NCBI GenBank assembly: GCA_009392285.1 | Contig: VFGU01000013.1 | Span: 1-64,000 of the forward strand | Source of the DNA: SAR202 cluster bacterium | GTDB lineage: Bacteria; Chloroflexota; Dehalococcoidia; Lucifugimonadales; Lucifugimonadaceae | Direction of reading: 5' to 3' | Length of the DNA stretch: 64,000 nt | Part shown: positions 9,550 to 33,179 of the stretch, one piece after another | Position numbering within the stretch: position 1 is the first letter of the stretch | Layout of the letters: each line of letters begins with the position of its first letter | Translations under genes and position numbers: made by a program | Notes under the pieces: generated by a model | The model's input: only the letters and a program-made list of their open reading frames with translations | The model's database searches: none | What the model was told of the DNA's origin: nothing

Positions 9550-9556
9550 TATTCTA

Positions 9557-10012: not shown

Positions 10013-11086
10013 GTGAATTCAGAAATACAAAAAATTAATGCCTTAGGCCAATCTATTTGGCTAGATTCTATTTCTAGGGGAATGATTAATTCTGGAAAAC
10101 TAAGTTCCATGATTTCAGAAGGAATTTCAGGTATTACATCCAATCCTGCTATATTTCAAAAAGCACTATCTTCTGAAAATACTTACGACAAAGATATAAA
10201 ATCTCTAACTAATTTAGATGGTAATGCAAAAAATATTTTCCAAAATTTATCTATAAAAGACATATCAGATGCCTGTGAATTACTAAGGCCTATTCATAAT
10301 AATACTCAAGGCAAGGATGGATTTGTAAGCATAGAAATAGATCCTAAATTTGCTAATGATACTGAAAAGAGCATTAGTGAAGGGATTTATCTTCATAAAT
10401 CCATTAATCAACCCAATGTGATGATTAAGGTCCCTGGCACAAAAAATGGGATGCCTGTAATAGAACATCTAATTAGTCTGGGAATAAATGTTAATGTGAC
10501 ATTATTGTTTTCAAGATCTATGTATAGAAAGGCAGCAAAGGCATATATAAATGGGCTAAATAAGTTATCTCCAGATCAAATGAAAAAAGTAAATTCTGTA
10601 GCTTCTTTTTTTATTAGCAGAATAGACACATCTGCAGATAAAGTTATTGATAAAAAATCTCAAGGTAAAGTTGCTATCTCAAACGCAATTCTTGCTTACC
10701 AAGATTATAAAAATATATTCTCTAGGGAGTCTTTTGGTCAATTAGAAAAGGAAGGTGCTAATAAACAGAGACTTCTTTGGGCTTCTACTTCGGTTAAAAA
10801 CCCAAACTATCAAAAACTTCTCTACGTTAGCGAACTTACAGGACCCGAAACCGTAAACACAGTTCCAGAAAATGTATATGAAGAAATTACCTCAAATAAT
10901 GTCCAATACAAAGATTTGCTTAATTCAGACACTAAATATCACGAAGGAATTATTAAAAATGTCCTTAGTGATGACGAATTAGAAAATATTACTGATGAAT
11001 TATTGAGTGACGGCATAAGGCTTTTTGAAGAAGCTTTTGATGGTCTTTTGAATGAAATAAAAAATAAAATTACTCATCATTCATAA
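10013..11086 (+). CDS. tal: Transaldolase (GTG start)
   Basis: GQSIWLDSISRGMI, GITSNPAIFQKAL, MIKVPGTKNGMPVIEHLISLGINVNVTLLFS, WASTSVKNPNY. Confidence 0.93.
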   Translation: MNSEIQKINALGQSIWLDSISRGMINSGKLSSMISEGISGITSNPAIFQKALSSENTYDKDIKSLTNLDGNAKNIFQNLSIKDISDACELLRPIHNNTQGKDGFVSIEIDPKFANDTEKSISEGIYLHKSINQPNVMIKVPGTKNGMPVIEHLISLGINVNVTLLFSRSMYRKAAKAYINGLNKLSPDQMKKVNSVASFFISRIDTSADKVIDKKSQGKVAISNAILAYQDYKNIFSRESFGQLEKEGANKQRLLWASTSVKNPNYQKLLYVSELTGPETVNTVPENVYEEITSNNVQYKDLLNSDTKYHEGIIKNVLSDDELENITDELLSDGIRLFEEAFDGLLNEIKNKITHHS

Positions 11087-11089
11087 GGC

Positions 11090-12625
11090 ATGTCAGATTA
11101 TAGCCTACAGCATAATGACCCTATCTTGCTCAATGATATTGAAAAGGACTTATTTAGGCTTCATGGGTCAAAAAATATCTGGATAGAGCACTCTCTTTCT
11201 TACCAAGAAAGGTTGGGCTGGGTTGAAACTCCAACGCTCATAGAGGAATCAATAAAATTGTGCAAAAATGCCTTTGATCGGGCAGTCAGCCACCTAAACC
11301 CTTCTTCAGTTGTATTTATTGGAATGGGCGGCAGTATTCAAACTGGAAAAGTGCTAAATCAAATATCTTTGAAGAGTAAGTATCAACTTATTTTCTTGGA
11401 CAGCACAAACCCTAGAGATGTTTCATCAGTTCGAGAAAAAATAGATATACTCAAGACCCTATTTGTTTTTATGAGCAAATCTGGAACAACATTAGAAACA
11501 AATAAATTAATGAATTTTTTCACCAAAGAACTCACCCAAAAAGGAAAATTTGATTTTGGCGATAGGTTTATTGTGCTAACTGATGCTAAAAATTCTTTAG
11601 AAAAGTTTGCCCTTAAAAATAATTTTTTTCAAATAATAAATACTCCAAAAAATATAGGAGGAAGATTTTCTTCGGCCACAGCATTTGGAATTTTTCCTGC
11701 GACGTTTATGAATGAGATATTAACTTCATTTAAAAATAATTATCTTTGGGATTCAAATCAAGTTATAAAAAAATGTTCCCTCCTTACTTCTATATTAATA
11801 GATTCTTACGAAAATCATAACGGTATTTTAAACTTAAAAATACCTGAAGAAATAAGTCAAATGGGTATTTGGTTAGAGCAAATAATTGCCGAATCAACTG
11901 GCAAAGACGGAAAAGGTATAACCCCAATAATTAATAATTATATTGATATTGGTTGTCCTAAAATATTGATAAATAGCAAGGATCAAAAAAAATATACTAG
12001 TACTAGAGCAGATGAACTAGTAATTAGTTTCGATAAAAATACAATTTTCGAAGACATGTTTATATGGCAGGCATCAATATCAATATTATGCAAACACATG
12101 TCTATTTTTCCATTTGATGAACCTGACGTGGAAAGATCTAAACTAAACACTAAAAATATACTTAAAAAATATAAAGATATGAGAAAGGTTACAATTCCTT
12201 ATTCTAGATCTGATATAAATAATATGATAAATGAAAATGAAACAAATCGAGTTTTATACATAAATTTATATATAAATGAAACAAAAAATATTAATACTTC
12301 ATTGAATAAGTTGAAAGAAAAATTAAGTTCATATCATGGCATAAAAGTAGTTGCAGGGTTTGGGCCACGATACTTGCATTCAGTTGGCCAACTACAAAAA
12401 GGTGGACCAAAAGATGTGTGGTCCATATTTTTTTATGACGAAAACTTAATTAATTCATATACCGAAAAAAATAATTACAAAGATTTAAGCGATACATTTA
12501 AAGCTCAAATGCTAGGAGACCTTGATGCTTTAAAGGATCTTGAGATAAACACTTATTTAGTTAACATTGATTCAAACAACAAGGATCCTTTTAAAAATGT
12601 TATAAATAAAATAAAGGAGGAATAG
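11090..12625 (+). CDS. pgi: Glucose-6-phosphate isomerase (tal-pgi-type)
   Basis: VFIGMGGSIQTGKVL, FVFMSKSGTTLETN, GGRFSSATAFGIFPA, VAGFGPRYLHSVGQLQKGGP. Confidence 0.87.
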   Translation: MSDYSLQHNDPILLNDIEKDLFRLHGSKNIWIEHSLSYQERLGWVETPTLIEESIKLCKNAFDRAVSHLNPSSVVFIGMGGSIQTGKVLNQISLKSKYQLIFLDSTNPRDVSSVREKIDILKTLFVFMSKSGTTLETNKLMNFFTKELTQKGKFDFGDRFIVLTDAKNSLEKFALKNNFFQIINTPKNIGGRFSSATAFGIFPATFMNEILTSFKNNYLWDSNQVIKKCSLLTSILIDSYENHNGILNLKIPEEISQMGIWLEQIIAESTGKDGKGITPIINNYIDIGCPKILINSKDQKKYTSTRADELVISFDKNTIFEDMFIWQASISILCKHMSIFPFDEPDVERSKLNTKNILKKYKDMRKVTIPYSRSDINNMINENETNRVLYINLYINETKNINTSLNKLKEKLSSYHGIKVVAGFGPRYLHSVGQLQKGGPKDVWSIFFYDENLINSYTEKNNYKDLSDTFKAQMLGDLDALKDLEINTYLVNIDSNNKDPFKNVINKIKEE

Positions 12626-13533
12626 TGGAAATTGCAGTAATAGGGCTAGGAAAGATGGGGCTAGGTATATCAAAAAGGCTTATGAAAAATGGACATACTG
12701 TTTTTGGTTATGATTCAAGTTGGGATACTAAAAAATATAAAAGCAATCAAATAGAAGAATTAAAATCTCTAAATGAAATACCAGGCAAATTCAGAAATAA
12801 TTCTAGGAAAATAATATGGGTTATGGTTCCTTCTGGAGAGCCAACAAAATCCACTATAAATGAATTAAGTTCAATATTAGATAAGAATGACATAATTATA
12901 GATGGAGGAAATTCTTTTTACAAAGAGTCAGTTAAAACATCTTCAGAGCTATCAAAAAAAAATATTTATCTTATAGACTCCGGTACCAGCGGAGGAATAT
13001 GGGGTGAAAAAGAGGGATATTGCTTGATGATAGGAGGAGATAAAGATGCTTATGAATACTGCGAAAGTATTTTTGAATCGCTTTCAACTGACGGAAAAGG
13101 TTACGGATATATGGGGCCAAGTGGTTCTGGTCACTTTGTAAAAATGATACACAATGGAATTGAATACGGAATGATGCAGTCAATGGCAGAAGGAATTGAA
13201 ATATTGCATGAAAAGAAGGAATTTAATCTTAATTTAGCTCAAATAACATCCCTGTGGCAACATGGGAGTGTTGTAAGATCATGGCTTTTAGATTTATTAA
13301 ATAACGCTTTAGAAGAAGATTCTGAGTTATCAAGTGTTGCGCCTTATGTTGAAGATTCAGGAGAAGGCAGATGGACTATAAAAGAAGGGATAGACCTAGA
13401 TGTGCCAACACATGCAATAACATCCTCTCTTTATTCAAGATTCTACTCAAGAAATAATGATTCTTTTGGATTCAAGATATTGGCTTCACTTCGGAATCAA
13501 TTTGGTGGTCATTCTATAAAAAAAGTTAACTGA
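12625..13533 (+). CDS. gnd: 6-phosphogluconate dehydrogenase, short decarboxylating form
   Basis: MEIAVIGLGKMGLGISKRLMKNGHTV, DGGNSFYKES, DSGTSGGIWGEKEGYCLMIGG, GSGHFVKMIHNGIEYGMMQ. Confidence 0.92.
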   Translation: MEIAVIGLGKMGLGISKRLMKNGHTVFGYDSSWDTKKYKSNQIEELKSLNEIPGKFRNNSRKIIWVMVPSGEPTKSTINELSSILDKNDIIIDGGNSFYKESVKTSSELSKKNIYLIDSGTSGGIWGEKEGYCLMIGGDKDAYEYCESIFESLSTDGKGYGYMGPSGSGHFVKMIHNGIEYGMMQSMAEGIEILHEKKEFNLNLAQITSLWQHGSVVRSWLLDLLNNALEEDSELSSVAPYVEDSGEGRWTIKEGIDLDVPTHAITSSLYSRFYSRNNDSFGFKILASLRNQFGGHSIKKVN

Positions 13534-15049
13534 AAATTTTTGAATAAAGTTCTTCCTGCCTATTCATTGCATTCTGATATATGATCATGTTTTTTTCATT
13601 TGGCTCATAAAATTTAGTTACCTCAAATTCAAAATCATTAAACGAACTTGATATGCCCATAGCATTTAATGCTAAAATTGCAGTTCCTCTACCTGTATCC
13701 TCTTGCACATTTGATACACCAACCCGCATACCTAAAACATCTGATAGCATTTGAAGCCAATATTTTGAAGATTGAACTGCTCCCCCGGAGGCAATTACTG
13801 AACATTCTTCTTGAAGCAAAGTCATTAGTCTTTTTGAAACTAAACCAAATCTATATGCTATAGATTCTAGAAAAGCCTGATAAATTTCTGGCTTGGTTGT
13901 AGATAATCTAAGTCCTGTTAATGTACCTGTAGCATTTTCAGCCCATCCTACAGCTCTTTCCCCTGCCAAAAAAGGCAAAACAGTTAAACCATGAGCATCA
14001 GGCTTAGACCTTAATAGAATATTTTCCAACTCTAGGCTAGATTCATTTGTGCTAATTTCTTCATTTAAATTTTCATCTGAATCTAATTGAATATTCATTA
14101 ATTTTTTTAACCATAACCCCACATTACCACCTTCTGAAAAAGCACCTCCTAGCAAACTATGATTTTCCCCTAACCTATAATTCCATAACCCCTGAGGAAT
14201 ATTAATTTTTGTTTTATTAGTTAGTACTCTTAGCGCTCCAGTTGTTCCAATAGATAAGGCTATCTTGTTTTCGGAATTGCACCCAACTCCTATATTAGAT
14301 GAAGCTCCGTCACCTACTGGTAAAAAAAATGGCACATTAGATAAACTAGGCCATCTTTTTGAGTATTCTCTATTCAACCCTTTTATATTTTTTGTATAAG
14401 GACTTAAATTAGGAAGATTATCCTCTTTTAAGCCAATAAAATTTAATCCAGGCGCATACCAAGTTAATTTTTTTCTATCTAGCAGGCCTGTCCAACTAGC
14501 CACTGAATAACTTATATCAATATCTTTCTTCTGCATCCATTTTCTTAGTAGGTAATTAGAAAAATCAGTCCAAATATGAATCTTTTTGTCCAAATCTGGA
14601 TATTTCTCTTTAAACCAAATAATTCTTGAAGGGATATAAGAAGTGTGCATTGGGCATCCAGTATCGTCATAAAAAAGTTTCTGATTAACACCTTCTTTAA
14701 GTTTTGCAAGTTGCTTATATGGCCTTGTATCTGCATATGTAAATACATCTGTTAAAGGGGCGTAGTTTTTATCAAGACCAACTATAGTGCTAGCCATTGT
14801 GTCGGTTGAAAAGGCGACTATTTGATATTCGGCGGCTTTTAAAAGTAACTCATCAAGCCCTCTCTCAATAATTTTAGAAGATTCAAGGGCACTAAAAGTA
14901 TAGGTGCCATCCGTCTTTATTGTCATCCAATGCTCAAATTTTATCTGACAATTTTTAATGGGGTTTGCAGATAAATCAAATAAACCAATTTTTACAAATG
15001 ATGTGCCAATATCTAAAACTAAAACTGCTTTTTTGTTTTGAGGAGCCAC
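13526..15049 (-). CDS. FGGY-family carbohydrate kinase, gluconokinase-like
   Basis: VLDIGTSFVKIGLFD, HTSYIPSRIIWFKEKYPDL, DGASSNIGVGC, SIGTTGALRV, SGGAVQSSKYWLQMLSDVLG. Confidence 0.85.
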   Translation of the reverse strand: MAPQNKKAVLVLDIGTSFVKIGLFDLSANPIKNCQIKFEHWMTIKTDGTYTFSALESSKIIERGLDELLLKAAEYQIVAFSTDTMASTIVGLDKNYAPLTDVFTYADTRPYKQLAKLKEGVNQKLFYDDTGCPMHTSYIPSRIIWFKEKYPDLDKKIHIWTDFSNYLLRKWMQKKDIDISYSVASWTGLLDRKKLTWYAPGLNFIGLKEDNLPNLSPYTKNIKGLNREYSKRWPSLSNVPFFLPVGDGASSNIGVGCNSENKIALSIGTTGALRVLTNKTKINIPQGLWNYRLGENHSLLGGAFSEGGNVGLWLKKLMNIQLDSDENLNEEISTNESSLELENILLRSKPDAHGLTVLPFLAGERAVGWAENATGTLTGLRLSTTKPEIYQAFLESIAYRFGLVSKRLMTLLQEECSVIASGGAVQSSKYWLQMLSDVLGMRVGVSNVQEDTGRGTAILALNAMGISSSFNDFEFEVTKFYEPNEKNMIIYQNAMNRQEELYSKIFS

Positions 15050-15104: not shown

Positions 15105-15977
15105 TTACTTTCTCCATCCCACTGAAGGTGCTGTTACAATTTTTTCCTGAGTTTTTTTCATATCCAATTTTCCCCATCTTTTATTTGGATCGGCTTCAGG
15201 TATAGAGTCGATAAGCAACTGTGTGTAAGGATGGGCAGGTTTTTTAATTACCGTTTCAACATTACCAGCCTCCACCAAATTACCTTTGTAAAGAATCATA
15301 ATTTCATCGCTAATCTGATAAGCAGTAGTTAAGTCATGGGTAACATAAACAACAGCAATACCCAATTCTTTATTTAATCTAGAAACAGCATCTAAAATTG
15401 TCGCTCGCAATGATGCATCAACAGCAGATACAGGCTCATCAGCCAATATAACCCTTGGCTTTAACAGGAGGGCCCTAGCAACCATAACTCTCTGCCTTTG
15501 CCCACCACTTAACTGATGAGGAAGTCTGCCTAATGTTTCTGCAGGAACCAAACCTACCATTTCTAAAGCTTGGTTGACCATATGAACAGCCTCATCTCTA
15601 TTTTCTGCCATTTTAAAATTTTTAACAGGACTAAATAGGACATGATCAACTTTGTAAAAAGGATTATAAGAACCATAAGGATCTTGGAATATAGGTTGAA
15701 CCTCTCTCCTGAATTCTCTTCTTTCTGCTCTAGAGATTTCTTTTAGGTCTTTTCCATCATACTCCACTGACCCACTTGTTGGATCAGCAATTCCTAACAA
15801 TAATCTAGCCAATGTTGTCTTTCCGCTACCTGATTCACCAGCAACAGCTACAATCTTTGGTTTTTTCTGATCTAAACTCATAGAAATATCATTTACTGCA
15901 ACATTTTCTTCTTCTCGGCTAAGAAATCCTCCTCCGAATACTTTTGTTACATTTTTTGCTTCTAATACTGCTGGCAT
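15105..15977 (-). CDS. Oligo/dipeptide ABC transporter ATP-binding protein (DppF/OppF-like)
   Basis: AGESGSGKTTLARLLLG, LSGGQRQRVMVARALLLKPRVILADEPVSAVD, HPYTQLLIDSIP. Confidence 0.92.
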   Translation of the reverse strand: MPAVLEAKNVTKVFGGGFLSREEENVAVNDISMSLDQKKPKIVAVAGESGSGKTTLARLLLGIADPTSGSVEYDGKDLKEISRAERREFRREVQPIFQDPYGSYNPFYKVDHVLFSPVKNFKMAENRDEAVHMVNQALEMVGLVPAETLGRLPHQLSGGQRQRVMVARALLLKPRVILADEPVSAVDASLRATILDAVSRLNKELGIAVVYVTHDLTTAYQISDEIMILYKGNLVEAGNVETVIKKPAHPYTQLLIDSIPEADPNKRWGKLDMKKTQEKIVTAPSVGWRK

Positions 15978-15993: not shown

Positions 15994-17004
15994 TTATTTC
16001 CCGTAACTAGAACATTTTTTACAATCTTGAATAAAGTGGTCTTTTGCTACATTAACCCACGGAATCTTTTCAGGGTTGGTTTGTCCAATTCGTAAGCAAA
16101 AAGCACAACCTTCAGGAAGATTTAAAAGGGTAGCAGGAAGTCCTGGGATTCCTATGAAATCTTTCTTGTTGCTTAATGTAGGCAGGCTCTTTATTAGAAG
16201 CCTTGTATATGGATGCTTTGGCGATTTAAATACTGTTTTCACAGGACCAACCTCAACCAGTCTTCCAGCGTACATAACCCCAACATGGTCAGAAAACTGA
16301 GCGACTAAGCCCATGTCATGACCTATTAATATAATAGATGCATGCAAACCTTCTTGCAGCCTTCCTAGAGTCTGCATAACATTTCTTTGCACAACTACAT
16401 CCAATGCACTTGTAGGTTCGTCTGCAACTATTACTCTTGGCTCCATTGAAGTTGCTATTGCTATTGCCACTCTCTGCTTCATTCCTCCGCTCAATTCGTG
16501 AGGATACATTTCAGCAACTGAAGGCGCTAAATCAACAGCCGTCAAAAGCTTTTCAACGATTTCAACTTGCTCCTCCTTAGACATTTTTTGATCGCCTTCT
16601 GTTTGATGGTCATATAATCCATCAAGTAATTGATTCTTTATTTTCATAACAGGATTCAATGAATTCATAGCTCCTTGAGGCACTAAGGCAACTTCATTTA
16701 ATCTCTGAAGTCTCATCTCTTCTTCATCCAAATCCAGCATATCTCTACCGCCAACATATACTTGGCCACCAGCAATTCTTCCTGGGGCTCTGGTAAGCCT
16801 CATTAAAGCCATCGCCAATGTACTTTTACCACTTCCAGATTCACCTACTAGCGCCATTCTTTCGCCTTGCCTTAATGAAAAACTAACTCCATCAACAGCC
16901 TTAACAACTCCATCAGGAGTGTCATAATGAACCTTTAGATCTTTTACGTCTATTCCTAATTCAGACTTAGAGGATTTAGACGCAACTTTTTTAGCAGTTG
17001 TCAT
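15994..17004 (-). CDS. Oligo/dipeptide ABC transporter ATP-binding protein (DppD/OppD-like)
   Basis: VGESGSGKSTLAMALMRL, ELSGGMKQRVAIAIATSMEPRVIVADEPTSALD, HPYTRLLIKSLPTL, C-terminal GCAFCLR. Confidence 0.92.
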   Translation of the reverse strand: MTTAKKVASKSSKSELGIDVKDLKVHYDTPDGVVKAVDGVSFSLRQGERMALVGESGSGKSTLAMALMRLTRAPGRIAGGQVYVGGRDMLDLDEEEMRLQRLNEVALVPQGAMNSLNPVMKIKNQLLDGLYDHQTEGDQKMSKEEQVEIVEKLLTAVDLAPSVAEMYPHELSGGMKQRVAIAIATSMEPRVIVADEPTSALDVVVQRNVMQTLGRLQEGLHASIILIGHDMGLVAQFSDHVGVMYAGRLVEVGPVKTVFKSPKHPYTRLLIKSLPTLSNKKDFIGIPGLPATLLNLPEGCAFCLRIGQTNPEKIPWVNVAKDHFIQDCKKCSSYGK

Positions 17005-17942
17005 ACTCTTTTCCTTAATCTAGGGTTTGACCATTCATCCAAACCTGCAGTTATCAAAAATAAACCAACAAATATCATTGCTAGTACTAATATAGGCGGA
17101 CCGAACCACCACCACATTCCGTGAAGAATAGACGAAAACTGAATATTCCAGTAAATTGTCATTCCAAGAGTTGGGCTATCAAAAGGTCCTAAACCAAGCG
17201 CCTCAAGACCTACAGATGCTAAAATTGCTGAAGCTACAGATCCAACTAAAGAAGCACCGATATACGGAGCTAAATTCGGCAACATTTCTTTGAACATAAT
17301 CGAGAATCCGCTAGTGCCACTCAACCTTGCTATTTCAACATATAACTGCTCCCTCATTACAAGAACTTGAGCCCTAATTGTTCTCGCAGGCCAAACCCAA
17401 GCAACTGCCGATACTGCCAGACCCATCTGCTGAACACTTAATCCACTTTGTATATTTACAGCAATAACGATTAGGATTAGGATTCCAGGTATGGTCAATC
17501 CTACGTCTACTATTGTACTAATAACCTGATCAACCCATCCTCCGTAATAAGCAGCAACAAACGCAAGAATAGTTCCAACGCTAATGCCAATCAGCCCTGC
17601 TATCAAACCTATCTGTAAAGTTAGAGGTATTCCAGCAATCATAACTGACATTACATCCCTGCCCTGCCTATCTGTTCCTAATATATATCCTCCATCTCTT
17701 GTGCCTGGGTTATATGGATCAGGCTCAAATGGCGCCAAATCTGGCCCACCACTTAATGGCCTAAATCTTTCAACTTCATAAGTTGCATATCCAATTATTA
17801 CGAATAGTAAAAGGGAAGCTAGCAATGCTATCCCCACACCTAGAGACGGATTTCTCCTGATATATCTACCAAAGTCTTCCAGTCTTCTTCTGAAAGTCTT
17901 TTTTGTTAAATCTGCACTTGCATCAGTAGTGGCTGTCGTCAT
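17001..17942 (-). CDS. Peptide ABC transporter permease (DppC/OppC-like)
   Basis: GTDRQGRDVMSVMIAGIPLTLQIGLIAGLIGISVG; multiple TM segments; 4-nt overlap with dppD-like gene. Confidence 0.92.
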   Translation of the reverse strand: MTTATTDASADLTKKTFRRRLEDFGRYIRRNPSLGVGIALLASLLLFVIIGYATYEVERFRPLSGGPDLAPFEPDPYNPGTRDGGYILGTDRQGRDVMSVMIAGIPLTLQIGLIAGLIGISVGTILAFVAAYYGGWVDQVISTIVDVGLTIPGILILIVIAVNIQSGLSVQQMGLAVSAVAWVWPARTIRAQVLVMREQLYVEIARLSGTSGFSIMFKEMLPNLAPYIGASLVGSVASAILASVGLEALGLGPFDSPTLGMTIYWNIQFSSILHGMWWWFGPPILVLAMIFVGLFLITAGLDEWSNPRLRKRV

Positions 17943-17944
17943 TA

Positions 17945-18979
17945 TTAACTTCCTTTCTTGTAACTAACTCTTGGGTCCAATAGAGGGTATGTTACGTCTA
18001 TAATGAAAGTAGCTAGCCCTAAGGTCACAATCACAATAAATATCATACCTCTAATAACAAAGAAATCGTTCAACTTAATTGCCTGATAAAGTGTATTACC
18101 AAGCCCTGGATATCTAAAAATAACTTCTACTAACACAGATCCAGTGAACACTGTACCAAGTGATAGGGCCAATGCTGTAGTTTGAGGAAGAACTGCATTT
18201 CTAACTGCATAGTTAAAGAATAGCCTTATACTTCTTAATCCTTTTGCTTCGGCAGCAATCATAAAGTCTTCACCCTGATTGGTAACCATCATTCCTCTCA
18301 TCCCAAGAGCCCAAAAACCTAATGAAGCAAGAACAATTGAGGATGCAGGTAATACAGCATGATGAACTACATCCCATGCGAAATTAAAACTCCACTCTGG
18401 TAATGTGGCCACTGCATATCCACCAAAAAGCGGAAACCAGTCAAGATTGAATGCAAAAATATAAATCAATACAAGGGCAAGTAGATAATAAGGTATTGCG
18501 GCCAACGTAAGTATAGGCATGAATATGTATTGAAGGAAATTAGGGGACTTAGGCCAACCCAATAAGGCGCCAGCAATCGTCCCTACAAAGAATGCAATAA
18601 ATGTACAAACTGCTAGCAATCCAAATGTCCATATGACGGAATCGCCAATTAATGAATTAACAGACTTGGGGAAGTAAGCAATTGATGGCCCAAAATCAAA
18701 TCTGAACAGATCTGCCATATAGTTACCATACTGAACTAATAATGGCTTATCTAAGCCAAATTTTCTAGAATACTCAGCTGCCATCTCCTCTAGACCTGCC
18801 TGCATATGTCCACCTCTTTGGGCTTCTAGCAACAACTTCTCTTTTACAGGATCTTGACCCGATAGTCTTGGTATTAAAAATATTGCTGTACTGGCTATCC
18901 AAATAATGAGTAAAAAAAACAAAAATCTTCTAAAAATGTAATTTGTATAAATGCTAGCTAAAATATCCCGAAAGGTCAT
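17945..18979 (-). CDS. Peptide ABC transporter permease (DppB/OppB-like)
   Basis: PLLVQYGNYMADLFRFDFGPS, EAKGLRSIRLFFNYAVRNAVLPQTTALALSLGTVFTGSVLVEVIFRYPGLG. Confidence 0.92.
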   Translation of the reverse strand: MTFRDILASIYTNYIFRRFLFFLLIIWIASTAIFLIPRLSGQDPVKEKLLLEAQRGGHMQAGLEEMAAEYSRKFGLDKPLLVQYGNYMADLFRFDFGPSIAYFPKSVNSLIGDSVIWTFGLLAVCTFIAFFVGTIAGALLGWPKSPNFLQYIFMPILTLAAIPYYLLALVLIYIFAFNLDWFPLFGGYAVATLPEWSFNFAWDVVHHAVLPASSIVLASLGFWALGMRGMMVTNQGEDFMIAAEAKGLRSIRLFFNYAVRNAVLPQTTALALSLGTVFTGSVLVEVIFRYPGLGNTLYQAIKLNDFFVIRGMIFIVIVTLGLATFIIDVTYPLLDPRVSYKKGS

Positions 18980-19068: not shown

Positions 19069-19130
19069 AATATAACCCTGATTGATACCTTTTACAAGTG
19101 TTTGTTTCAAAAATGTTTCTAGTATGTTTC
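19069..19130 (-). promoter_or_regulatory. Predicted promoter of the permease/ATPase operon with three 11-bp-phased GAAAC boxes
   Basis: Minus strand: GAAAC (19130-19126) N6 GAAAC (19119-19115) N6 GAAAC (19108-19104) N6 TTGTAA (19097-19092) N17 TATATT (19074-19069). Confidence 0.6.
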
Positions 19131-19258
19131 TCAAATTATTGCATTTTTAAAAATTGTGGTATTATTCCATAATCATCTTAATTGGTGTGAGTTGTGATTT
19201 TGTTATTTTTCAACTTGAACGCTGACTAATTTATTAAGGTGGTTTTTAAAAACTACGT

Positions 19259-19294: not shown

Positions 19295-21187
19295 ATGAGT
19301 CGAAAACTTCTATCATTAATGCTTGCCGTATTGATGTCTCTTTCTCTTGTTATGGTTGCTTGTGGTGGAGACGATGATGCAGAAACTGCATCTTCATCAA
19401 CATCATCTTCTTCTGAGTCTAAGTCAGAAGTTAAGATTCTTGAAAAGAGCACTCAACCACCAGCGAAAAAAGAGGAATCTGCCAGTTCTAGCTCGGGTGG
19501 ACTCAAATCAGTGGACCGTGCAAAAACTTTCATAACCTTCCAAGGAGGTTCTGAAGGTCGACACACAGACCATGAATTGTGGAACCCGTATGCAATTGGT
19601 GCTAACCACCAAAGAGGTCCAAACATTATTTATGAACCTCTAGCTTTCTTCAGTGCTTTCGCTGATGAGACAATTCCTTGGTTGGCAACAAGCTGGGATT
19701 GGAACGGTGACTTCACTGAACTTACAATTAACCTCCGAAAGGGAGTTAACTGGAGTGATGGTGAAGAATTCAACGCGGATGACGTTGTATACACCCTTAA
19801 CACTTTGAAGGACTATGCAGAAGAAGTGCGATGGGGTACTGACATCGATGCAGTGATGGATACTGCTACTAAAGTAGATAGCCACACTGTAAAAGTTTCA
19901 TTAACTAGACCAGACCCAAGATTTATGTTCTTGTTAACTTACAAGTTCGATATTGGTGTTTACATGGTTCCTGAACACGTATTTAACGGTCAGGACTGGA
20001 CAACTTTCAAGGCTTTTGATGTTGATGCTGGACTTCCAGTAACAACTGGTCCTTGGAGAGTAGTCGCTGGAACACCTGAACAAAAAGTTTTTGACAGAGC
20101 TGATTCATGGTGGGGAGAAGGAAAATCTGACCTTAAAGGTTATGGTGTTCTTCCTGAAGTAGAAAGAATAATCTACTTACCTGGAACAGGTGATCAACAG
20201 ACTACTGCACAAGCTCTAATTAAGGGTGATGTGGACTATGCTGCAATGACTACACCAAAAACTATTAAAGAAACACTAGCTCAAAACTCTAAGCTTCTTA
20301 CTCACTCTGAGCAAGAATCACCATATGGATATGTTGACTGGTGGCCAGTATCACTTGCGTTTAACAACTCAGGTAAATACGGTCCTTACGATGACAAAGA
20401 TATCCGATGGGCTATGAGTTACTTACTAGACAGAAAAGAATTGTCTAAAGTGGCTTATGATGGTGCAGCAGCGCTTAACCCGTTGACTATGCCTCAATAC
20501 CCGCCTCTTCAGAAATACTTTGATGGTGTTGCTGACCTACTTGTAGGTGACAGAGACACTACATTGTTTGCTCCTGAAAAGGCTGCTGCTATCTTCACTG
20601 AAAAAGGCTGGGCGAAAAACTCAGACGGAATGTGGGAAAAAGATGGCGAGATGATTAACTGTGAAATTATTGGATTTAGCCCATGGGTTGACCTTGGTCC
20701 TCTTACTGCTGAGCAGTTGAGAAAACAAGGTATTAACGCTAGCTACATTCAACCACCTGATGCTTCATCTAGAATGGCTGAAGGTAACTTCGAGTGTCTA
20801 ATGTTTGGACACGGTGGTTCAGTAAGAGACCCTTACTTTACTATGAAGCTTTACCAGAGTTCATCTGTGAACATTCCAGGTGGTCACCAAGTTAACTTCT
20901 ACCACTGGGAGAATGCTACATGGGACGAACTTACTGATAAGATCGCTCAGACTCACCCAGATGAAACTGACACAATCATGGACTACTACCATGACGCTAT
21001 GGAAATTTGGATCGAAGAACTTCCAGACGTGCCAATTCTTGAGTTCTACCACAGAATTGTGATGAGCAGAGAGTATTGGGATGGATGGCCTGTTGACCGA
21101 GGTCCTAAGCAAGACAGTTATGTAAACGAAGCTTCTTGGCACCTTACATGGGGTCTAGTGCTTCACAAACTAACTGCTGTTCAGTAA
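19295..21187 (+). CDS. ABC transporter solute-binding lipoprotein, family 5 (oligo/dipeptide)
   Basis: Lipobox [62 protein letters not shown]; adjacent to divergent permease/ATPase genes. Confidence 0.93.
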
Positions 21188-21296: not shown

Positions 21297-22085
21297 TTGT
21301 TAGCAGATTTATCTGGAAAAACCGCAATTATTACTGGTGGTGGTCAAGGTTTGGGTTTTGGCATATCTACTAAAATGGCTCAACAAGGGGCAAATTTAAT
21401 TATTACTGATATAGATGATAGGAATAAATCAGCAATAAGTGATCTGGCAAGTAAATACGATATTAAATACTTGTATATCGAAATGAATGTTACAGACCAA
21501 TCCCAAGTTGAAAATGGAATAAATGAAGCTTTAGAGTTTTCTGATGTAGATATATTAGTAAATAATGCTGGAGTGGCTGGTGCTCCTGGATCTACAGGGA
21601 CAGTTTGGAGAGACGAAGATTGGGATTTTACATGGGAAGTTAATGTTAAAGGATTGCACAGGGTGACAGAGGCAGTCTTACCACATATGATTGAAAAACA
21701 GTCTGGAAAAATTATTAATATCTCTTCTGTTGCAGCTAGGGCAGCAAAATACACTACTTCATACTATGCAACTACAAAAATGGCTGTAATTGCCTATACA
21801 CAGGCTTTAGCAAGAGAATTTGGCCCAAAGAATATTAATGTTAATGCTATAGCTCCTGGAAGAATACTCACAAACTTCCATAAAGAGTGGGTAGAGAACA
21901 GAAAAAAACTTGGAGACACCACAACAGATCTTTTTTCAAAAGAAGCACTAGGTCAGGTTATGCCTCTTGGTAGAGCTCAAACACCTGAAGATATTGGGGC
22001 TTTGGCAGCTTTTCTTGCTTCTGAAGATGCAAAAAATATTACAGGACAGACGATTCAGTGTGATGGTGGACAGGTTATGGCGTAG
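21297..22085 (+). CDS. Short-chain dehydrogenase/reductase (TTG start)
   Basis: TGGGQGLGFGI, NNAGVAG, SYYATTKMAV, C-terminal TGQTIQCDGGQVM; AAGGAG upstream of TTG. Confidence 0.9.
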   Translation: MLADLSGKTAIITGGGQGLGFGISTKMAQQGANLIITDIDDRNKSAISDLASKYDIKYLYIEMNVTDQSQVENGINEALEFSDVDILVNNAGVAGAPGSTGTVWRDEDWDFTWEVNVKGLHRVTEAVLPHMIEKQSGKIINISSVAARAAKYTTSYYATTKMAVIAYTQALAREFGPKNINVNAIAPGRILTNFHKEWVENRKKLGDTTTDLFSKEALGQVMPLGRAQTPEDIGALAAFLASEDAKNITGQTIQCDGGQVMA

Positions 22086-22638
22086 TAATTAGCAATGAAA
22101 GTAAATTTGAACACGTATTTCTAGATTCAAGTTCGTCTTTTCCTTCGCACATTACTATAACATTATTAAATACTACGAAATCTCCATATTTTGAAGTGTA
22201 ATTACATCCTGAATGTGGTTGACCCGGGGGTCTGCTACACCTTCTCCTATCTTTTTCTCCGTCTTCCCAAGGAACATCACCTGTTACTATGCCATTTTTA
22301 CCAGTTACCAATTTAGCGTCATCTGAACCTTTTCCTATAGCTTCCTGATGATTGGAATAAAACCTAAGTTCATAATCCATCTTTTTATATATTCCATGAA
22401 AAGCAGCGGAAAGTGGAGGGATTTCTTCAACGCTCTTGTACTCTCTGAGCGACTTAAATCCTACAGACTTAAAATCTTGTATGCTTAAATTATTTCCATT
22501 ATTAGTAATTTCAGGAAAAGCTTGTTCAATGAGATCTGCCTCTGATTGAGCATTATCAGAGGAACATGAAAAAATAAAAACAAATAATAGGATTTGGAAG
22601 ATTAGAAATAAGTTAGTTTTGGAGTGTGAATTACTCAG
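22075..22638 (-). CDS. Small lipoprotein, paralogous family (non-canonical CTG start proposed; the tracked ORF 22075-22380 is only the 3' part)
   Basis: In-frame translation upstream of 22380 gives KTNLFLIFQILLFVFIFSCSSDNAQSEADLIEQAFPEITNNGNNLSIQDFKSVGFKSLREYKSVEEIPPLSAAFHGIYKK-MDYELRFY...; no in-frame ATG/GTG/TTG before the upstream stops. Confidence 0.55.
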   Translation of the reverse strand: MSNSHSKTNLFLIFQILLFVFIFSCSSDNAQSEADLIEQAFPEITNNGNNLSIQDFKSVGFKSLREYKSVEEIPPLSAAFHGIYKKMDYELRFYSNHQEAIGKGSDDAKLVTGKNGIVTGDVPWEDGEKDRRRCSRPPGQPHSGCNYTSKYGDFVVFNNVIVMCEGKDELESRNTCSNLLSLLITTP

Positions 22639-23254
22639 TTATTACCCCTTTTAAACCATTTACAATTAAATTAATGTTTTTATGAGATTCTTCTAAGTCA
22701 GCACCTTGCCCCAAAATAATTACATTTCCAAATATTTTATAGTCAGCATATTTTGGGATAATACATGCTCCAGTATGATGCCCTCCATCACCTTGGCATT
22801 CTCTTGCCTCTTTAAGTAATTCTTGCCAATCTGCTCCTATAGGATGAACTGCTTTAGGGTCATTTGTAGTCTTCTTTCTAATTTGTGCATTTTCTCCAGT
22901 TCTTAGGTCGGCAGATTTTTCCCCCATACTTACTGCATCAGAATGAGAAGCATAGAACCTTAACTCATAGTCAATCATGTCTTTTCCTGACCAATCCTTA
23001 TATGGGACCTTCCAAAAACCCCAATATGCATTAGTCATGCCATCCATTAGTTTGTCTTCTTTTACAGACTTGCCTTTTTTATATCCTATTGCAATAAAAT
23101 CATCTAGCGAGTAGGTACTGCCACTATCTTCAATCTGTTCAAAAATAACTGCTGCACTAGACGAGTCGCTAGAAGACGAGTCTGAGCCTCCTCCGCAAGC
23201 TACTATCATCAAAGACGTAAAAATTAATAAAAATGAAATAAGTATTTTCTTCAT
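22631..23254 (-). CDS. Small lipoprotein, paralogous family
   Basis: MKKILISFLLIFTSLMIVACGGGSD lipobox; YELRFYASHSDAVSMGEKSADLRTGENA; PKYADYKIFGNVIIL. Confidence 0.85.
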   Translation of the reverse strand: MKKILISFLLIFTSLMIVACGGGSDSSSSDSSSAAVIFEQIEDSGSTYSLDDFIAIGYKKGKSVKEDKLMDGMTNAYWGFWKVPYKDWSGKDMIDYELRFYASHSDAVSMGEKSADLRTGENAQIRKKTTNDPKAVHPIGADWQELLKEARECQGDGGHHTGACIIPKYADYKIFGNVIILGQGADLEESHKNINLIVNGLKGVITE

Positions 23255-23381
23255 TAAATCGCTCCTAATACAATTATCTCTTTGTTTATTTTATTAAACT
23301 AAGTGATTCTTCATGTTAAGATATAATTTGATAGTTTATCAAAAATTCTTAACAATACCCAAAAAAGGCAAGTAAGATTTT

Positions 23382-25208
23382 ATGTTGAAAAAAAACACAT
23401 TAACACTCTTTATTACTGTTTTATGTTTAATCGCATTCGGATGCTCTTCTAGCGAGAATGAAACACCAAAAACAGAAAAACCACTTACTACTAACACTAG
23501 CCCCAAATCAGAAATCATTCCTGATAACAATGTCAAAGCTGTTCCATATGCAGTTAAAGGAAGATCGGTGGATATTGAATTTGATGGAACTCATATATGG
23601 ATTGCACACTACGAAGATTCAATAATTTCTAAAGTAGATTTGGAAGGAAAAACTATTGGGACATATGAAGTTCAAGGAGAACCAATAAAACTAACCTTTG
23701 ATGGGGAATTCATTTGGGTGGCTCATTTCACAGAGCCAATAGTAACTAAATTAAACCTAAATGGTGAAATTGTCGGGGTTCATGCTACAGGCGAATCACC
23801 TGGCGGCATATTTAGAGACGGAGAAGATATTTGGGTTGCGAATGGAATGTCTAACTACATATCTAAAATATCGAGAGATACAGGAGAGACATTAGCAGAG
23901 TACCCGGTAGGTGGAGGCGAAATGCCAGGTCCATATGCAATGGAGTTTGATGGGGAAAATTTATGGGTAGCTAATTATTTTGAAAATACGGTTGAAAGGC
24001 TTAATTTACAAGGAGAAGTTATACAAACTATTATGCCCGGATTTGATCCTGTTTCATTAGAATACGATGGGCAAAATTTATGGGTTGTACTTGTTGATGA
24101 GGATAGTGTTGCATTAATTGATAATGAAGGCGAAATAGAAAGTGTGCACCCAGTGCCCAATGGCCCAAGGCAAATATTGTTTGATGAAAAGAGTTTGTGG
24201 GTTGTAAGTTTTGATGAAAAAAAATTATCTAGACTCGACTTAAATGGAAAAGTTGAGGGAGAAATTTCACTAGATGGAGGACCTTGGGCAATGGAATTTG
24301 ATGGGGAAAATTTATGGGTTGTAGATTCTACTTCTCCCAAATTATGGAAAATAACCAACAAAGACGGTCAACTTAATGAACCAAAACCAATTAGTGAAAA
24401 ATATTATAGCCTTAATGAAATTGAATCACTTCCACATATTGTCACAACTGATCAAGGCTTTTTTTCATCCCCATACCCATCAATAATCATCGAAGACACA
24501 ATCTGGCTTTCGATAAGAGAAGAGCAAAGGATTGTCCTCATAGATGCAAACGGAGAGGAAAAGAAATCCATTAAAATTGATGGCGAACTTTCTGACATGA
24601 AATTTGACGGAAATTTTGTTTGGGTTTCTGACCCAAAGGAAAGGTCCATATCAAAATACACATCTGATGGATCTTTTGTTGCAGAATATGATGTATCTTC
24701 AAGGCCTACAAAGATTGAATTTGTTGAAAATAATATTTGGTTTATTAGCACCGAAGATGATTCTTTAAGTTGGATGACAAAATCAGGAGAAATTGGAGAA
24801 GTATATCAAATTGGGGGGTGGCCTCTTGATATATTGTACGATGGCAAATATGTCTGGACATCCAATTCTAGGGATAAAACTGTAACAAGAATCACTCTAG
24901 ATGGAGAGGAATTAAAGAAATATAGAGTTGGAGATACACCTATTCAAATTCTTTTTTCAGATTATCACGGAGAAGGTCATATATGGGTACTTAATTATGG
25001 TGATAATAGTTTAATGAAACTTACAAGATACGGGATGAGGCTTGCAGTTGTTTCACTAAGCAAAGGTTCCTCTGACCTTGCATCGTTTCAAGGCAAAATA
25101 ATTACATATAATCCAATAACAGAGGAATTTAAGGAAGTTTCTGCTGAAATTGGAGGAGAGTCTATGGAAAATAATAAATGGAGAGAACCATCAAGATTCA
25201 CAAAATAA
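23382..25208 (+). CDS. Beta-propeller (NHL/Vgb-like) lipoprotein
   Basis: Lipobox LCLIAFGCSSSE; about 12 copies of a [FY]DGxx[IVL]W[VI] motif. Confidence 0.82.
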   Translation: MLKKNTLTLFITVLCLIAFGCSSSENETPKTEKPLTTNTSPKSEIIPDNNVKAVPYAVKGRSVDIEFDGTHIWIAHYEDSIISKVDLEGKTIGTYEVQGEPIKLTFDGEFIWVAHFTEPIVTKLNLNGEIVGVHATGESPGGIFRDGEDIWVANGMSNYISKISRDTGETLAEYPVGGGEMPGPYAMEFDGENLWVANYFENTVERLNLQGEVIQTIMPGFDPVSLEYDGQNLWVVLVDEDSVALIDNEGEIESVHPVPNGPRQILFDEKSLWVVSFDEKKLSRLDLNGKVEGEISLDGGPWAMEFDGENLWVVDSTSPKLWKITNKDGQLNEPKPISEKYYSLNEIESLPHIVTTDQGFFSSPYPSIIIEDTIWLSIREEQRIVLIDANGEEKKSIKIDGELSDMKFDGNFVWVSDPKERSISKYTSDGSFVAEYDVSSRPTKIEFVENNIWFISTEDDSLSWMTKSGEIGEVYQIGGWPLDILYDGKYVWTSNSRDKTVTRITLDGEELKKYRVGDTPIQILFSDYHGEGHIWVLNYGDNSLMKLTRYGMRLAVVSLSKGSSDLASFQGKIITYNPITEEFKEVSAEIGGESMENNKWREPSRFTK

Positions 25209-25726
25209 AAATTTTGATAATCCTTATTTTGTTTGTATTTTTAACCCTAATTGGATGTTCTTCTGAAGAATCAGTAAATAATAATCAATTAGAAAAAATA
25301 GTTAACCCTACCCTAATAACATCAATCGCTGAAATATCTATCCCTAAGTTTAAGTTAGGTAAGAACTATAAAGTTGAAGATCTACCAGAAGCTATTGCTG
25401 TCTCAAGAGCAATATTTAATAAAAAAGATATAGAAATAAGAGAATATAAAACTCATGAGGATGCTATACAATTTGGAGAAAAATTTGCATCAAGCGTTTC
25501 TGGAAAAGACGCTATAGTAAGTGGAGACAATGTGATGTGGAAAGAAGGGGCTAAAGACAGAAGAAAATGTGTGCCAAGAGCAGGGAATTCTGAAGCTGGA
25601 TGCGACCAAACTCCTAGATTTGGAGGATATATAATTTTAGGAAATCTAATTATTTTATGTGAAGGCCTTAGCGATCAAGAGTCTTTGGAATTATGTCATT
25701 CATTTAAAAACTCATTAATTCAATAA
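25178..25726 (+). CDS. Small lipoprotein, paralogous family
   Basis: LFVFLTLIGCSSEES lipobox; KDRRKCVPRAGNSEAGCDQTPRFGGYIILGNLIILCEG matches the 22075 paralog. Confidence 0.82.
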   Translation: MERTIKIHKIKILIILILFVFLTLIGCSSEESVNNNQLEKIVNPTLITSIAEISIPKFKLGKNYKVEDLPEAIAVSRAIFNKKDIEIREYKTHEDAIQFGEKFASSVSGKDAIVSGDNVMWKEGAKDRRKCVPRAGNSEAGCDQTPRFGGYIILGNLIILCEGLSDQESLELCHSFKNSLIQ

Positions 25727-25727
25727 C

Positions 25728-26525
25728 TTATTCTCCCTGGTCACCTGTATCCCAATTCCCCCAAGCCATCATTCCTCCATCAACAACTAAATATTCTCCT
25801 GTAATAAATGAAGCTTTATCGCTACACAAGAATGATGCTGCATGACCAATCTCTTCCGGTTGACCAATTCTCCCAATTGGATGGGCCTCCCCCATTGTCT
25901 TGAAACCTTCTTCAATATCTCCTGCCATAGAGTTCCTTAGCAAAGGAGTATTAAATGCCCCGGGACAAATAGCCATAACTCTTATTTGCTCTTTTGCATA
26001 GTCAAGAGACATGTTTCTAGTAAGAGACAATACTCCTCCTTTACTAGCCGCATAAGCAGGAACTCCTCTCATAGACTGAAGACCTTGCACGCTAGCAATA
26101 TGAATTATTGCCCCCTTGCCATTCTTTCTCATATGTGGAATTGCATATTTAGACATTAAGTAATAACTCTTTAAGTTAACATTTAGTATTGCATCCCATA
26201 TATCTTCAGGAGTTTCCTCAACATTTTTATAGGAAGCAGGAGGCTGAATACCCACATTATTAATAAGAATATCTACTCCACCAAAAGCACTAACGCACTC
26301 ATTTACAACTTTTTCAGGGACATCCGATTTTTCAAAATTGGCCTTTACAAATATCGCCGAACCACCATTTTTGTTTATAGTTTCTGCTGCCTCTTGTCCG
26401 TGCTCATCTGAAATATCAGCTATACATACTTTTGCTCCTTCTGAAGATAGAACATCGACCACTCCCCTTCCTATGCCTTGAGCCCCTCCGGTTACTATTG
26501 CTACTTTATTGTCATGAGTACCCAT
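25728..26525 (-). CDS. Short-chain dehydrogenase/reductase
   Basis: VTGGAQGIGRGVVDVL, NNVGIQPP, AYAASKGGVLSLTRNMSLDYA, TGEYLVVDGGM. Confidence 0.9.
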   Translation of the reverse strand: MGTHDNKVAIVTGGAQGIGRGVVDVLSSEGAKVCIADISDEHGQEAAETINKNGGSAIFVKANFEKSDVPEKVVNECVSAFGGVDILINNVGIQPPASYKNVEETPEDIWDAILNVNLKSYYLMSKYAIPHMRKNGKGAIIHIASVQGLQSMRGVPAYAASKGGVLSLTRNMSLDYAKEQIRVMAICPGAFNTPLLRNSMAGDIEEGFKTMGEAHPIGRIGQPEEIGHAASFLCSDKASFITGEYLVVDGGMMAWGNWDTGDQGE

Positions 26526-26618
26526 AAATTACCCCTTTATAATTTTTTTCAAAGTATACACGATATAAATATATCCTGATAATATGATAAAACATATCTA
26601 ATTAAGTTAAGGAGTGTC

Positions 26619-27527
26619 ATGGAATATCACATTGAAAAATTAGCATCTCCAGGTGCAATTGTAGGCGAAGGTCCTGTATGGAATCCCGAAGAAAATAAAC
26701 TTTACTGGACAGATATACAAGGTGGCAAACTATTTAAGTATGACCCAGAGACTGGGGCAAATGATGTAATTCATGATGGAGTAGAGGTAGGAGGATACAG
26801 ATTCAATGAAGGGGGAGGTCTGGTTTTAGGAACATGGGAAGGCGTGATGTTATGGCATTCTGATGACGATTACAAATGGATTCAAAATGGAAATTTCGAA
26901 GGAAAGGATACTGCGATCAAGATAAATGATGCGACTTCAGGTCCTGATGGGAGTTTTTACTGTGGCACCGATGCTTCAGACTGGCAAAGTGACATCCTTT
27001 TTAGAGTTAATACTGACACATCTATAGATATATTAGATGAGGGGATAACTTTATGTAATGGGATGGGGTTCTCTCCTGATGAAACCAAATTCTACAATAC
27101 TGACACCCTTGCAAAAACTATATATCAATGGGACTACAACACCAGTACAAAGGCTCTGTCCAATAAAAAGGTATTAGTAAAAATTGATGATGATTCTGAA
27201 GGAATCACCGACGGAATGACTGTTGACTCTGAAGGATTTATTTGGTCAGCAATATGGTGGGGCTCAAAAGTTATGCGATTTGATCCTGATGGAAAATTAG
27301 AAAGAGAAATTTATTTTCCTGCATCTCAAACTTCATGCCCTATGTTTGGAGGAAAAGATTTAAATGAACTTTATGTTAGTAGTGCAGCATGGGGATCAGG
27401 AAGCACCCCAGAAGAAGCAACCGGCATTGAACCAAAAGGATATGACTTTAGTTCATACAGGGGCGGAGATTTATTTAGAGTTAAATTAGATATTCAAGGT
27501 AAGCCAGAATATAAGACTAAATTCTAA
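26619..27527 (+). CDS. SMP-30/gluconolactonase family protein
   Basis: VGEGPVWNPEENKLYWTDIQGGKLFKYDP, INDATSGPDGSFYCGT, LCNGMGFSPDETKFYNTDTLAKTIYQWDY. Confidence 0.9.
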   Translation: MEYHIEKLASPGAIVGEGPVWNPEENKLYWTDIQGGKLFKYDPETGANDVIHDGVEVGGYRFNEGGGLVLGTWEGVMLWHSDDDYKWIQNGNFEGKDTAIKINDATSGPDGSFYCGTDASDWQSDILFRVNTDTSIDILDEGITLCNGMGFSPDETKFYNTDTLAKTIYQWDYNTSTKALSNKKVLVKIDDDSEGITDGMTVDSEGFIWSAIWWGSKVMRFDPDGKLEREIYFPASQTSCPMFGGKDLNELYVSSAAWGSGSTPEEATGIEPKGYDFSSYRGGDLFRVKLDIQGKPEYKTKF

Positions 27528-28181
27528 TTAAAATACTCTGTATTTAAGGTAGGCTTCTTGAGGATCAACTCCTGAAAGTATATCTTTTCTGAGAGCGCTT
27601 TCGGTATTTATGTAGTCTTCCGTTTCAGAAATTACCTCGGAAGCAATTTCTTTAGGAATAACTACTACTCCGTCTATATCTCCTAATACATAATCTCCGG
27701 AGTTTATTATTAAATCGCCTATTTTAATTGGTTCGCCTAAAGATGTGATTTTCCATCTGCATACTACATCAGAAGGAGTAAAGTATTTACAAAAAACAGG
27801 AAAACCTAGATTAAGGATAAAGTCTACATCTCTGCACCCACCATCAACTATGTATCCTTTAACTCCCCTGTACTTTAATGTTTCCGCTGATAATTCCCCC
27901 ATATGAGCAATTGTTCCATCGTTAGGCTGGCACATTATCACTGACCCGGAAGGCGCTTTGCTAAGCATTTCTGTCCAACTAAGCATTGTTGTGTCTTTAT
28001 CTAAAGTCTCATCGATTTCTCCACTACAAGTCCATATTTCTCCCGCTAATTTTTTAGATGGATCAATAGACTTAATTTCATGAGGAAGGATAGAATTCTT
28101 ATTACCTCTTTCTCTAAGAACATCATAAACTGCCCCTGTATAACATTTTTCTAATCTCTGTACTAAATTATTTTTTTGCAT
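27528..28181 (-). CDS. RraA-like protein (hydroxy-oxoglutarate aldolase-type)
   Basis: GTIAHMGELSAETLKYRGVKGYIVDGGCRDVDFI, GDYVLGDIDGVVVIPKEIA. Confidence 0.82.
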   Translation of the reverse strand: MQKNNLVQRLEKCYTGAVYDVLRERGNKNSILPHEIKSIDPSKKLAGEIWTCSGEIDETLDKDTTMLSWTEMLSKAPSGSVIMCQPNDGTIAHMGELSAETLKYRGVKGYIVDGGCRDVDFILNLGFPVFCKYFTPSDVVCRWKITSLGEPIKIGDLIINSGDYVLGDIDGVVVIPKEIASEVISETEDYINTESALRKDILSGVDPQEAYLKYRVF

Positions 28182-31629: not shown

Positions 31630-31666
31630 TATTTTTTTACGAATTAATCATAATTAATACATTTTT

Positions 31667-31717
31667 GAAACATTTTTGAAACATTTCATTGCATTCTTTT
31701 GCTTAATATATTCTAAT
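31667..31717 (+). promoter_or_regulatory. Predicted glnA promoter with two 11-bp-phased GAAAC boxes
   Basis: GAAAC (31667-31671) N6 GAAAC (31678-31682) N6 TTGCAT (31689-31694) N17 TCTAAT (31712-31717); ATG at 31749 preceded by AGGAGG. Confidence 0.6.
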
Positions 31718-31748: not shown

Positions 31749-33179
31749 ATGGCTGATTCTAATGTTTCTTCAGTATTGAAGTTGATGAAAGATAATGATT
31801 GTGACATTTTAGATTTAAAATTTATAGACGTACCTGGAACATGGCAACATGTGGCTCTACCTATTTCAGAAGTAAATGATGCATTATTTGAAAAAGGTAC
31901 TGGATTTGATGGGTCTAGCGTAAGAGGTTTCCAAACCATTGATGAGTCAGACATGCTTTTGCTACCTCATGCAGAGACAGCAAAAGTTGATCCATTTATG
32001 GAAAAGACAGTTTCGATAATAGCAGACATCAGAGATCCACTAACCAATGGGAATTATACTAGAGATCCGAGATATATAACTATTAAAGCAGAGCAATACC
32101 TTAAAGATTCTGGGGTAGGTGACACTTCTTATTGGGGACCTGAGTTAGAATTCTTTGTTTTTGATTCAGTTCAGTTTTTTCAAAAAGAAAATGAAGCATA
32201 CTTCAAGGTAGATTCTGATGAAGGAATTTGGAATTCAGGATCAGAAACAATGATAGATGGTGGGCCGAATATTGGTCAGAGGCCGGGATATAAAGGTGGC
32301 TATTTTCCTGCATCTCCAATCGACACTATGCATGATATGCGAGGTGAAATGACAAGGATCATGATTGATCTCGGGATTGAAATTGAGAAACATCATCATG
32401 AGGTTGCTACAGGTGGTCAAGGAGAAATTGATCTTAGGTATGACACTATGCTAAGTATGGCTGATAAAGTAATGAGATATAAATATGTTGTAAAAAATGT
32501 AGCTCAAAGTTGGGGCAAGGTTGCAACATTTATGCCTAAGCCACTGTTTAATGATAATGGAACAGGAATGCACACACACCAAAGTATTTGGAAGGATGGA
32601 AAACCTTTGTTTGCGGGTAAAGAGTATGCAGGATTGAGCAAGATGGCATTGAACTATATCGGAGGAATTATAAAGCATGGAAGAGCCTTAATGGGATTAT
32701 GTGCTCCTACATCTAATAGTTACAAAAGATTGGTACCTGGGTTTGAAGCACCTACTATTCTAGCGCTTTCAGCTAGAAACAGAAGTGCTGCATGTAGAGT
32801 GCCTATGTATTTCGATAATCCGGCTGCAAAAAGAGTAGAATTTAGGTCTGCGGATCCTACTTGTAATCCTTACTTAGCATTCCCAGCAATGTTAATGGCT
32901 GGGCTTGACGGAATAGAGAATGGTTATGACCCTGGAGAAGCTTTAGAAGATGACCTTTTTGAACTCTCTAACGAAGAACAAGCTAAATTGAAGCAAGTTC
33001 CTGGAAGCATAGAAGGGGCGCTTGATGCTCTTGAAGAGGATCATGACTTCCTTCTAAAAGGCGATGTATTCACATCTGATCTGCTTGAAGCTTTCATTTC
33101 TTATAAGAGAGAAACAGAGGTTGATGAAGTTAGAACTAGGCCTCATCCTTGGGAATACTTCTTGACTTTCAACTCATAA
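31749..33179 (+). CDS. glnA: Glutamine synthetase, type I
   Basis: GTGFDGSSVRGFQTIDESDM, KPLFNDNGTGMHTHQSIWKDGKPLF, LVPGFEAPTILALSARNRSAACRVP, RSADPTCNPYLAFPAMLMAGLDGI. Confidence 0.95.
   Translation: MADSNVSSVLKLMKDNDCDILDLKFIDVPGTWQHVALPISEVNDALFEKGTGFDGSSVRGFQTIDESDMLLLPHAETAKVDPFMEKTVSIIADIRDPLTNGNYTRDPRYITIKAEQYLKDSGVGDTSYWGPELEFFVFDSVQFFQKENEAYFKVDSDEGIWNSGSETMIDGGPNIGQRPGYKGGYFPASPIDTMHDMRGEMTRIMIDLGIEIEKHHHEVATGGQGEIDLRYDTMLSMADKVMRYKYVVKNVAQSWGKVATFMPKPLFNDNGTGMHTHQSIWKDGKPLFAGKEYAGLSKMALNYIGGIIKHGRALMGLCAPTSNSYKRLVPGFEAPTILALSARNRSAACRVPMYFDNPAAKRVEFRSADPTCNPYLAFPAMLMAGLDGIENGYDPGEALEDDLFELSNEEQAKLKQVPGSIEGALDALEEDHDFLLKGDVFTSDLLEAFISYKRETEVDEVRTRPHPWEYFLTFNS

Follow-up and report, generated by a model that had tools for sequence, protein, structure and literature searches.

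Probable GlnR-type box arrays at the promoters of glnA and an ABC importer operon in a SAR202-type Chloroflexota genome

Introduction

Evenly spaced GAAAC boxes precede two otherwise unrelated promoters in a 64-kb stretch of DNA (hereafter the window; 34.7% G+C), those of an ABC importer operon and of the glutamine synthetase gene glnA. This raises the questions of whether the boxes form a genuine control element, which protein would bind them, and what the element would connect. The window belongs to a SAR202-type Chloroflexota genome, the near relatives of its GlnA being metagenome-assembled genomes of Dehalococcoidia, Chloroflexi or the SAR202 cluster (best 85%). The source assembly comprises 751 kb and is 55.6% complete, and a small genome agrees with the streamlined genomes of SAR202 (PMC11994032). 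A search of the open-access literature found no description of GlnR-type control in Chloroflexota.

Box arrays at the two promoters

The importer promoter reads GAAAC-ATACTA-GAAAC-ATTTTT-GAAAC-AAACAC-TTGTAA-17 nt-TATATT on the minus strand (19130-19069), letter for letter as the initial annotation had described it. Its three boxes (19126..19130, 19115..19119 and 19104..19108) follow a period of 11 bp, and the third is separated by 6 nt (AAACAC) from a -35-like TTGTAA (19092..19097), which a 17-nt spacer (19075..19091) divides from a -10-like TATATT (19069..19074). On its other side, box 1 is flanked at 8 nt by a promoter-like block on the plus strand (TTGCAT-N15-TATTAT, with TG before the -10; 19139..19165). 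Together with its flank (19139-19190), this block is conserved even in a related species that has lost the boxes (G001), and probably serves the divergent binding-protein gene as its promoter.

The glnA promoter on the plus strand (31667-31717) reads GAAAC-ATTTTT-GAAAC-ATTTCA-TTGCAT-17 nt-TCTAAT, with boxes at 31667..31671 and 31678..31682, TTGCAT at 31689-31694 and TCTAAT at 31712-31717. A weak third repeat, AATAC (31656..31660), is read directly upstream in the same 11-bp period. The downstream gene (31749..33179, plus strand) encodes a type I glutamine synthetase (TIGR00653, 620 bits against a cut-off of 429). The two promoters have the 16-mer GAAACATTTTTGAAAC in identical form, and the earlier claim that they agree in both the 6-nt distance from last box to -35 and the 17-nt spacer holds at both. 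The equal spacer alone carries little weight, because the -35 hexamers match weakly (TTGTAA at 4/6 positions, TTGCAT at 3/6); conservation in relatives does carry weight.

The published actinobacterial GlnR box, gTnAC-n6-GaAAC, is composed of 5-nt sites that have AC as their fourth and fifth letters and mostly begin with G (PMC10704036). For Streptomyces venezuelae, the sites given for GlnR ChIP peaks include exact GAAAC-N6-GAAAC (PMC3087709). The b-site GAAAC is exact in all boxes of the window, while the a-site at the importer promoter is GAAAC rather than GTnAC; the glnA pair (31667-31682) lies in the promoter where a GlnR box is expected. A conserved regulatory element is real at both promoters, and it is most likely a GlnR-type box.

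Conservation among relatives

Five other species carry a close dppB orthologue (84-98% identity), and three of them (G004, G008 and G006) keep all three boxes before TTGTAA-N17-TATATT, with GTAAC as the third box and a 5-nt step to the -35 in G006. The -10-like element survives in each of the five species aligned, even in G001, whose promoter has also kept a TTGAAA and has lost the boxes; in G003, no boxes occur in the sequence read upstream of dppB. The initial annotation had tied its proposal to conservation of the repeats in close relatives, which is thus seen in three dpp orthologues and is lacking in two, those of the more distant species G001 and G003. Both G001 and G003 retain the candidate regulator gene described below, although they are without dpp boxes. 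A joint loss of regulator and boxes in G001 was considered and dropped, its regulator frame being intact with the stop at the normal end. In the G004 assembly, two contigs carry the same stretch with the same neighbour genes (G004:C13:1727 and G004:C14:17071; L175 and L185), so that this assembly seems to contain a duplicated or redundant contig.

At glnA, the exact pair recurs in one of five relatives (G008, where the TTGCAT-N17-TCTAAT promoter is also identical), and two more have GTAAC-N6-GAAAC (G007 and G009), while the boxes have diverged to GAAAT-N6-GAAAC in G003 and GAAAT-N6-GAAAT in G001. More broadly, the pattern [GT]WAAC-N6-[GT]WAAC, set after the data had been seen, occurs within 250 nt upstream of glnA at 12 of the 22 loci from Chloroflexota, where the background rate of these loci predicts 0.19, compared with none of 52 loci from other phyla (0.05 expected). 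Four of the 22 have the exact GAAAC pair (0.03 expected), and just two the strict actinobacterial pattern (0.1 expected). glnA is the most widely conserved target of the boxes, and the dpp link is, as judged from these alignments, the narrower of the two.

A candidate regulator

A search for the DNA-binding domain recovered only two OmpR-type genes in the source genome and one or two in each genome of the genus. One of the two, the candidate regulator (G000:C12:261117-261806, outside the window), has an OmpR-type winged helix. Among solved structures, three GlnR chains match it best (102-108 bits; next 79), compared with 56 bits for PhoB. A 32-sequence profile likewise places GlnR chains first (158-175 bits versus 140 for the next). 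Its predicted model (mean pLDDT 81.8) combines a receiver-like half with a winged helix, and a structure search with it supports the OmpR/PhoB architecture only. In the DNA-binding-domain tree, actinobacterial GlnR falls, with weak support, beside another Chloroflexota protein. Of 196 genomes of the class, 151 encode a related protein at E 1e-25; few genomes beyond the class do so.

Pfam detected no Response_reg domain in the receiver half at E 0.1, and the 3.2-kb regulator locus has no histidine kinase among its open reading frames of 150 aa or more, so that the candidate resembles GlnR in being an orphan regulator with an atypical receiver. The conserved Asp-50 of the GlnR receiver is absent, Gly-56 standing where aligned relatives such as L145 have Asp; because the acceptor is replaced, the protein is named GlnR-like and not GlnR. 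No box was seen upstream of the regulator gene in nine genomes, which offers no sign of autoregulation.

The regulator gene lies on the minus strand directly upstream of a glutamine synthetase (GS)-like gene, at a distance of 11 nt (locus L084, G000:C12:259641-262865; frames 107-1462 and 1474-2166). The GS-like protein is 32% identical to the GlnA of the window. The two genes adjoin in all nine genus genomes that have the regulator and in five further genomes of the same family. By sequence reading, rpsL/rpsG-like ribosomal genes run divergently from the pair. This setting, the match to the GlnR box and its conservation uphold one part of the earlier proposal of a co-regulated nitrogen regulon, namely a shared control element tied to nitrogen; what the importer takes up is another matter.

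The importer operon and its substrate

The controlled operon, on the minus strand, begins with two ABC permeases of dppB/oppB type (17945..18979) and dppC type (17001..17942), both matching Pfam BPD_transp_1, and continues with two ATPases of dppD type (15994..17004) and dppF type (15105..15977), both matching ABC_tran and oligo_HPY. The last gene of the apparent operon encodes a gluconokinase-like FGGY sugar kinase (13526..15049), an order kept in four sister species, and a family-5 solute-binding protein is encoded divergently (19295..21187, plus strand). NCBIfam and Pfam matches do not fix the substrate of the transporter. In a profile comparison, the binding protein matched Thermotoga family-5 proteins at 84-104 bits, chito-oligosaccharide-binding types at 73-80 and DppA at 49. 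One of the Thermotoga matches is named as a mannoside sugar-binding protein; the others are known as saccharide-binding, although some of them have 'oligopeptide' in their record names. The binding protein is thus not closest to peptide-binding members, as would be expected of a Dpp/Opp importer, and appears saccharide-binding-like. Its identity to these proteins is low, and therefore peptide transport is made less likely rather than excluded.

The FGGY kinase is nearest to gluconate kinase and adjoins genes for 6-phosphogluconate dehydrogenase, transaldolase and transketolase in an order kept in sister species, with gluconolactonase-like and mannonate-dehydratase-like genes on the other side of the transporter. 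The surrounding sugar and sugar-acid island (7615-15049 and 21297-29199) encodes transketolase, transaldolase, a phosphoglucose-isomerase-like protein, 6-phosphogluconate dehydrogenase and the gluconokinase-like protein, as well as two short-chain dehydrogenases, two gluconolactonase-like proteins and mannonate dehydratase. Saccharides or sugar acids are, from gene content and protein similarity, a more likely substrate than peptides, and the regulatory link may be one of nitrogen to sugar or sugar-acid uptake. The 'peptide uptake' and 'nitrogen-scavenging' of the initial annotation fit poorly with the preference of the binding protein for saccharide-type relatives over DppA and with the gluconokinase-like gene in the operon. 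Either substrate is compatible with GlnR control, since GlnR in actinomycetes binds the promoters of carbohydrate ABC transporters and also controls oppABC and dppABC (PMC10704036). Sugars and sugar acids support growth of SAR202 isolates (PMC10444878).

Mode of control and rival explanations

We infer with considerable confidence, from sequence comparison, that the GAAAC arrays serve a GlnR-type regulator as binding sites, with binding, activation and a response to nitrogen limitation all forming part of that inference. The regulator would be an orphan member of the OmpR family whose receiver domain is too degenerate to be phosphorylated. Its winged-helix subunits would line up head to tail along a single face of the DNA, each on one 11-bp repeat, and would occupy three sites at the dpp promoter and two to three at glnA. 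The last of them would stand 6 nt from the weak -35, and the bound protein would recruit RNA polymerase to glnA and the transporter operon under nitrogen shortage. For GlnR, a promoter with four sites is reported to be occupied head to tail by four DNA-binding domains (PMC10704036).

The array might instead act as a repressor or dual switch between the divergent promoters, and not simply activate the permease operon. We regard this as the strongest of the alternatives, though an unlikely one: the array sits 6 nt from the dppB -35 and 8 nt from the conserved divergent block, and in actinomycetes GlnR acts as activator and as repressor (PMC10704036), but in both promoters the boxes end at an equal distance upstream of a weak -35, an arrangement expected of activator sites, and actinomycete glnA is itself GlnR-activated (PMC10704036). 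The geometry of array and -35 thus appears suited to activation.

A bolder version of GlnR-type activation can be entertained as a rather speculative possibility. A phosphorylation-independent GlnR-like activator might be controlled by the adjacent GS-like protein, the GS paralogue serving as nitrogen sensor, and a minimal regulon might couple glutamine synthesis to sugar or sugar-acid uptake. This would be a solution parallel to the GlnR-GlnA pair of Firmicutes, but with an OmpR-type regulator.

It is improbable that the boxes are bound by another direct-repeat regulator of OmpR/PhoB type (a phosphate or envelope regulator, or the second Trans_reg_C protein), the tie to nitrogen being incidental. 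Repeats of 11 bp upstream of the -35 are general for OmpR/PhoB-type activators, a second gene (L085) does exist, and the source genome is merely 55.6% complete. Sister genomes up to 89% complete nevertheless show only two such genes, and the L085 protein has a diverged winged helix (60 bits for Trans_reg_C versus 98 for the candidate) and no receiver match in Pfam. The box sequence is, moreover, that of GlnR, and glnA is the target most widely retained.

That the boxes are chance repeats in AT-rich intergenic DNA is very hard to sustain, even though exact GAAAC-N6-GAAAC pairs number three in the 751-kb genome against four occurrences of a reversed control pattern and about 1.8 expected from composition, and although in other genomes of the genus most of the pairs examined elsewhere fall in genes or at gene edges, because all three pairs of the source genome fall within the two promoters at an equal distance from the -35, exact triplets are expected only 0.002 times, and the boxes show both cross-species conservation and phylum-specific enrichment at glnA. 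In the window, 11 is the sole GAAAC-to-GAAAC distance to be repeated (three times; other distances once each). The pairs are not over-represented as such, whereas their placement, shared -35 distance and conservation are not chance.

A genome-wide regulon scan, as the initial annotation had suggested, was run with a sequence-only profile over whole genomes. Only the sites used to build the profile scored clearly (E below 1e-6), and the next matches (E 0.002 and worse) were on inspection mostly within genes. The scan misses weak sites, because the real dpp array of G006, with a spacer one base shorter, scores poorly. One of these next matches, the box-like pair TTACATTTTTGTAACATTTTGATA in another genome (G002:C2:13802; L170 1501-1580), precedes a 483-aa open frame by 79 nt; by eye, this frame resembles the start of a 2-oxoglutarate dehydrogenase E1.

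Relation to known systems

If GlnR-type control of these promoters is correct, such nitrogen control is not confined to Actinobacteria but extends to a marine group that is abundant and little studied, and nitrogen status is predicted to set how SAR202 takes up dissolved organic carbon. The prediction is testable, as cultured SAR202 strains exist (PMC10444878).

Among described systems, the PhoB/PhoP-type OmpR regulators share with the present case a winged-helix DNA-binding domain and 11-bp direct repeats ending near the -35. Their box sequence differs from the boxes found here, and the candidate regulator scores lower against PhoB than against GlnR (56 versus 108 bits). The GlnRA operon of Firmicutes is similar in that a nitrogen regulator gene lies directly upstream of a gene of the glutamine synthetase family, and the feedback-inhibited GS acts as its sensor (PMC9249791). 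The regulator families are however unrelated (MerR in Firmicutes, OmpR here), and the GS-like protein of the present pair shares only 32% identity with the GlnA of the window. The actinobacterial GlnR regulon of Streptomyces, Mycobacterium and Saccharopolyspora offers the broadest likeness, in box sequence, 6-nt spacing and tandem boxes, in glnA and ABC importers as targets, in an atypical orphan regulator and in the closest solved structures. The system described here is distinguished from it by its host, a Chloroflexota lineage (Dehalococcoidia/SAR202), by a receiver without a Pfam match and with Gly at the acceptor Asp, by the pairing of the regulator with a GS-like gene, by the lack of a box seen at the regulator's own promoter, and by a regulon of just two strong targets found in a source genome 55.6% complete.
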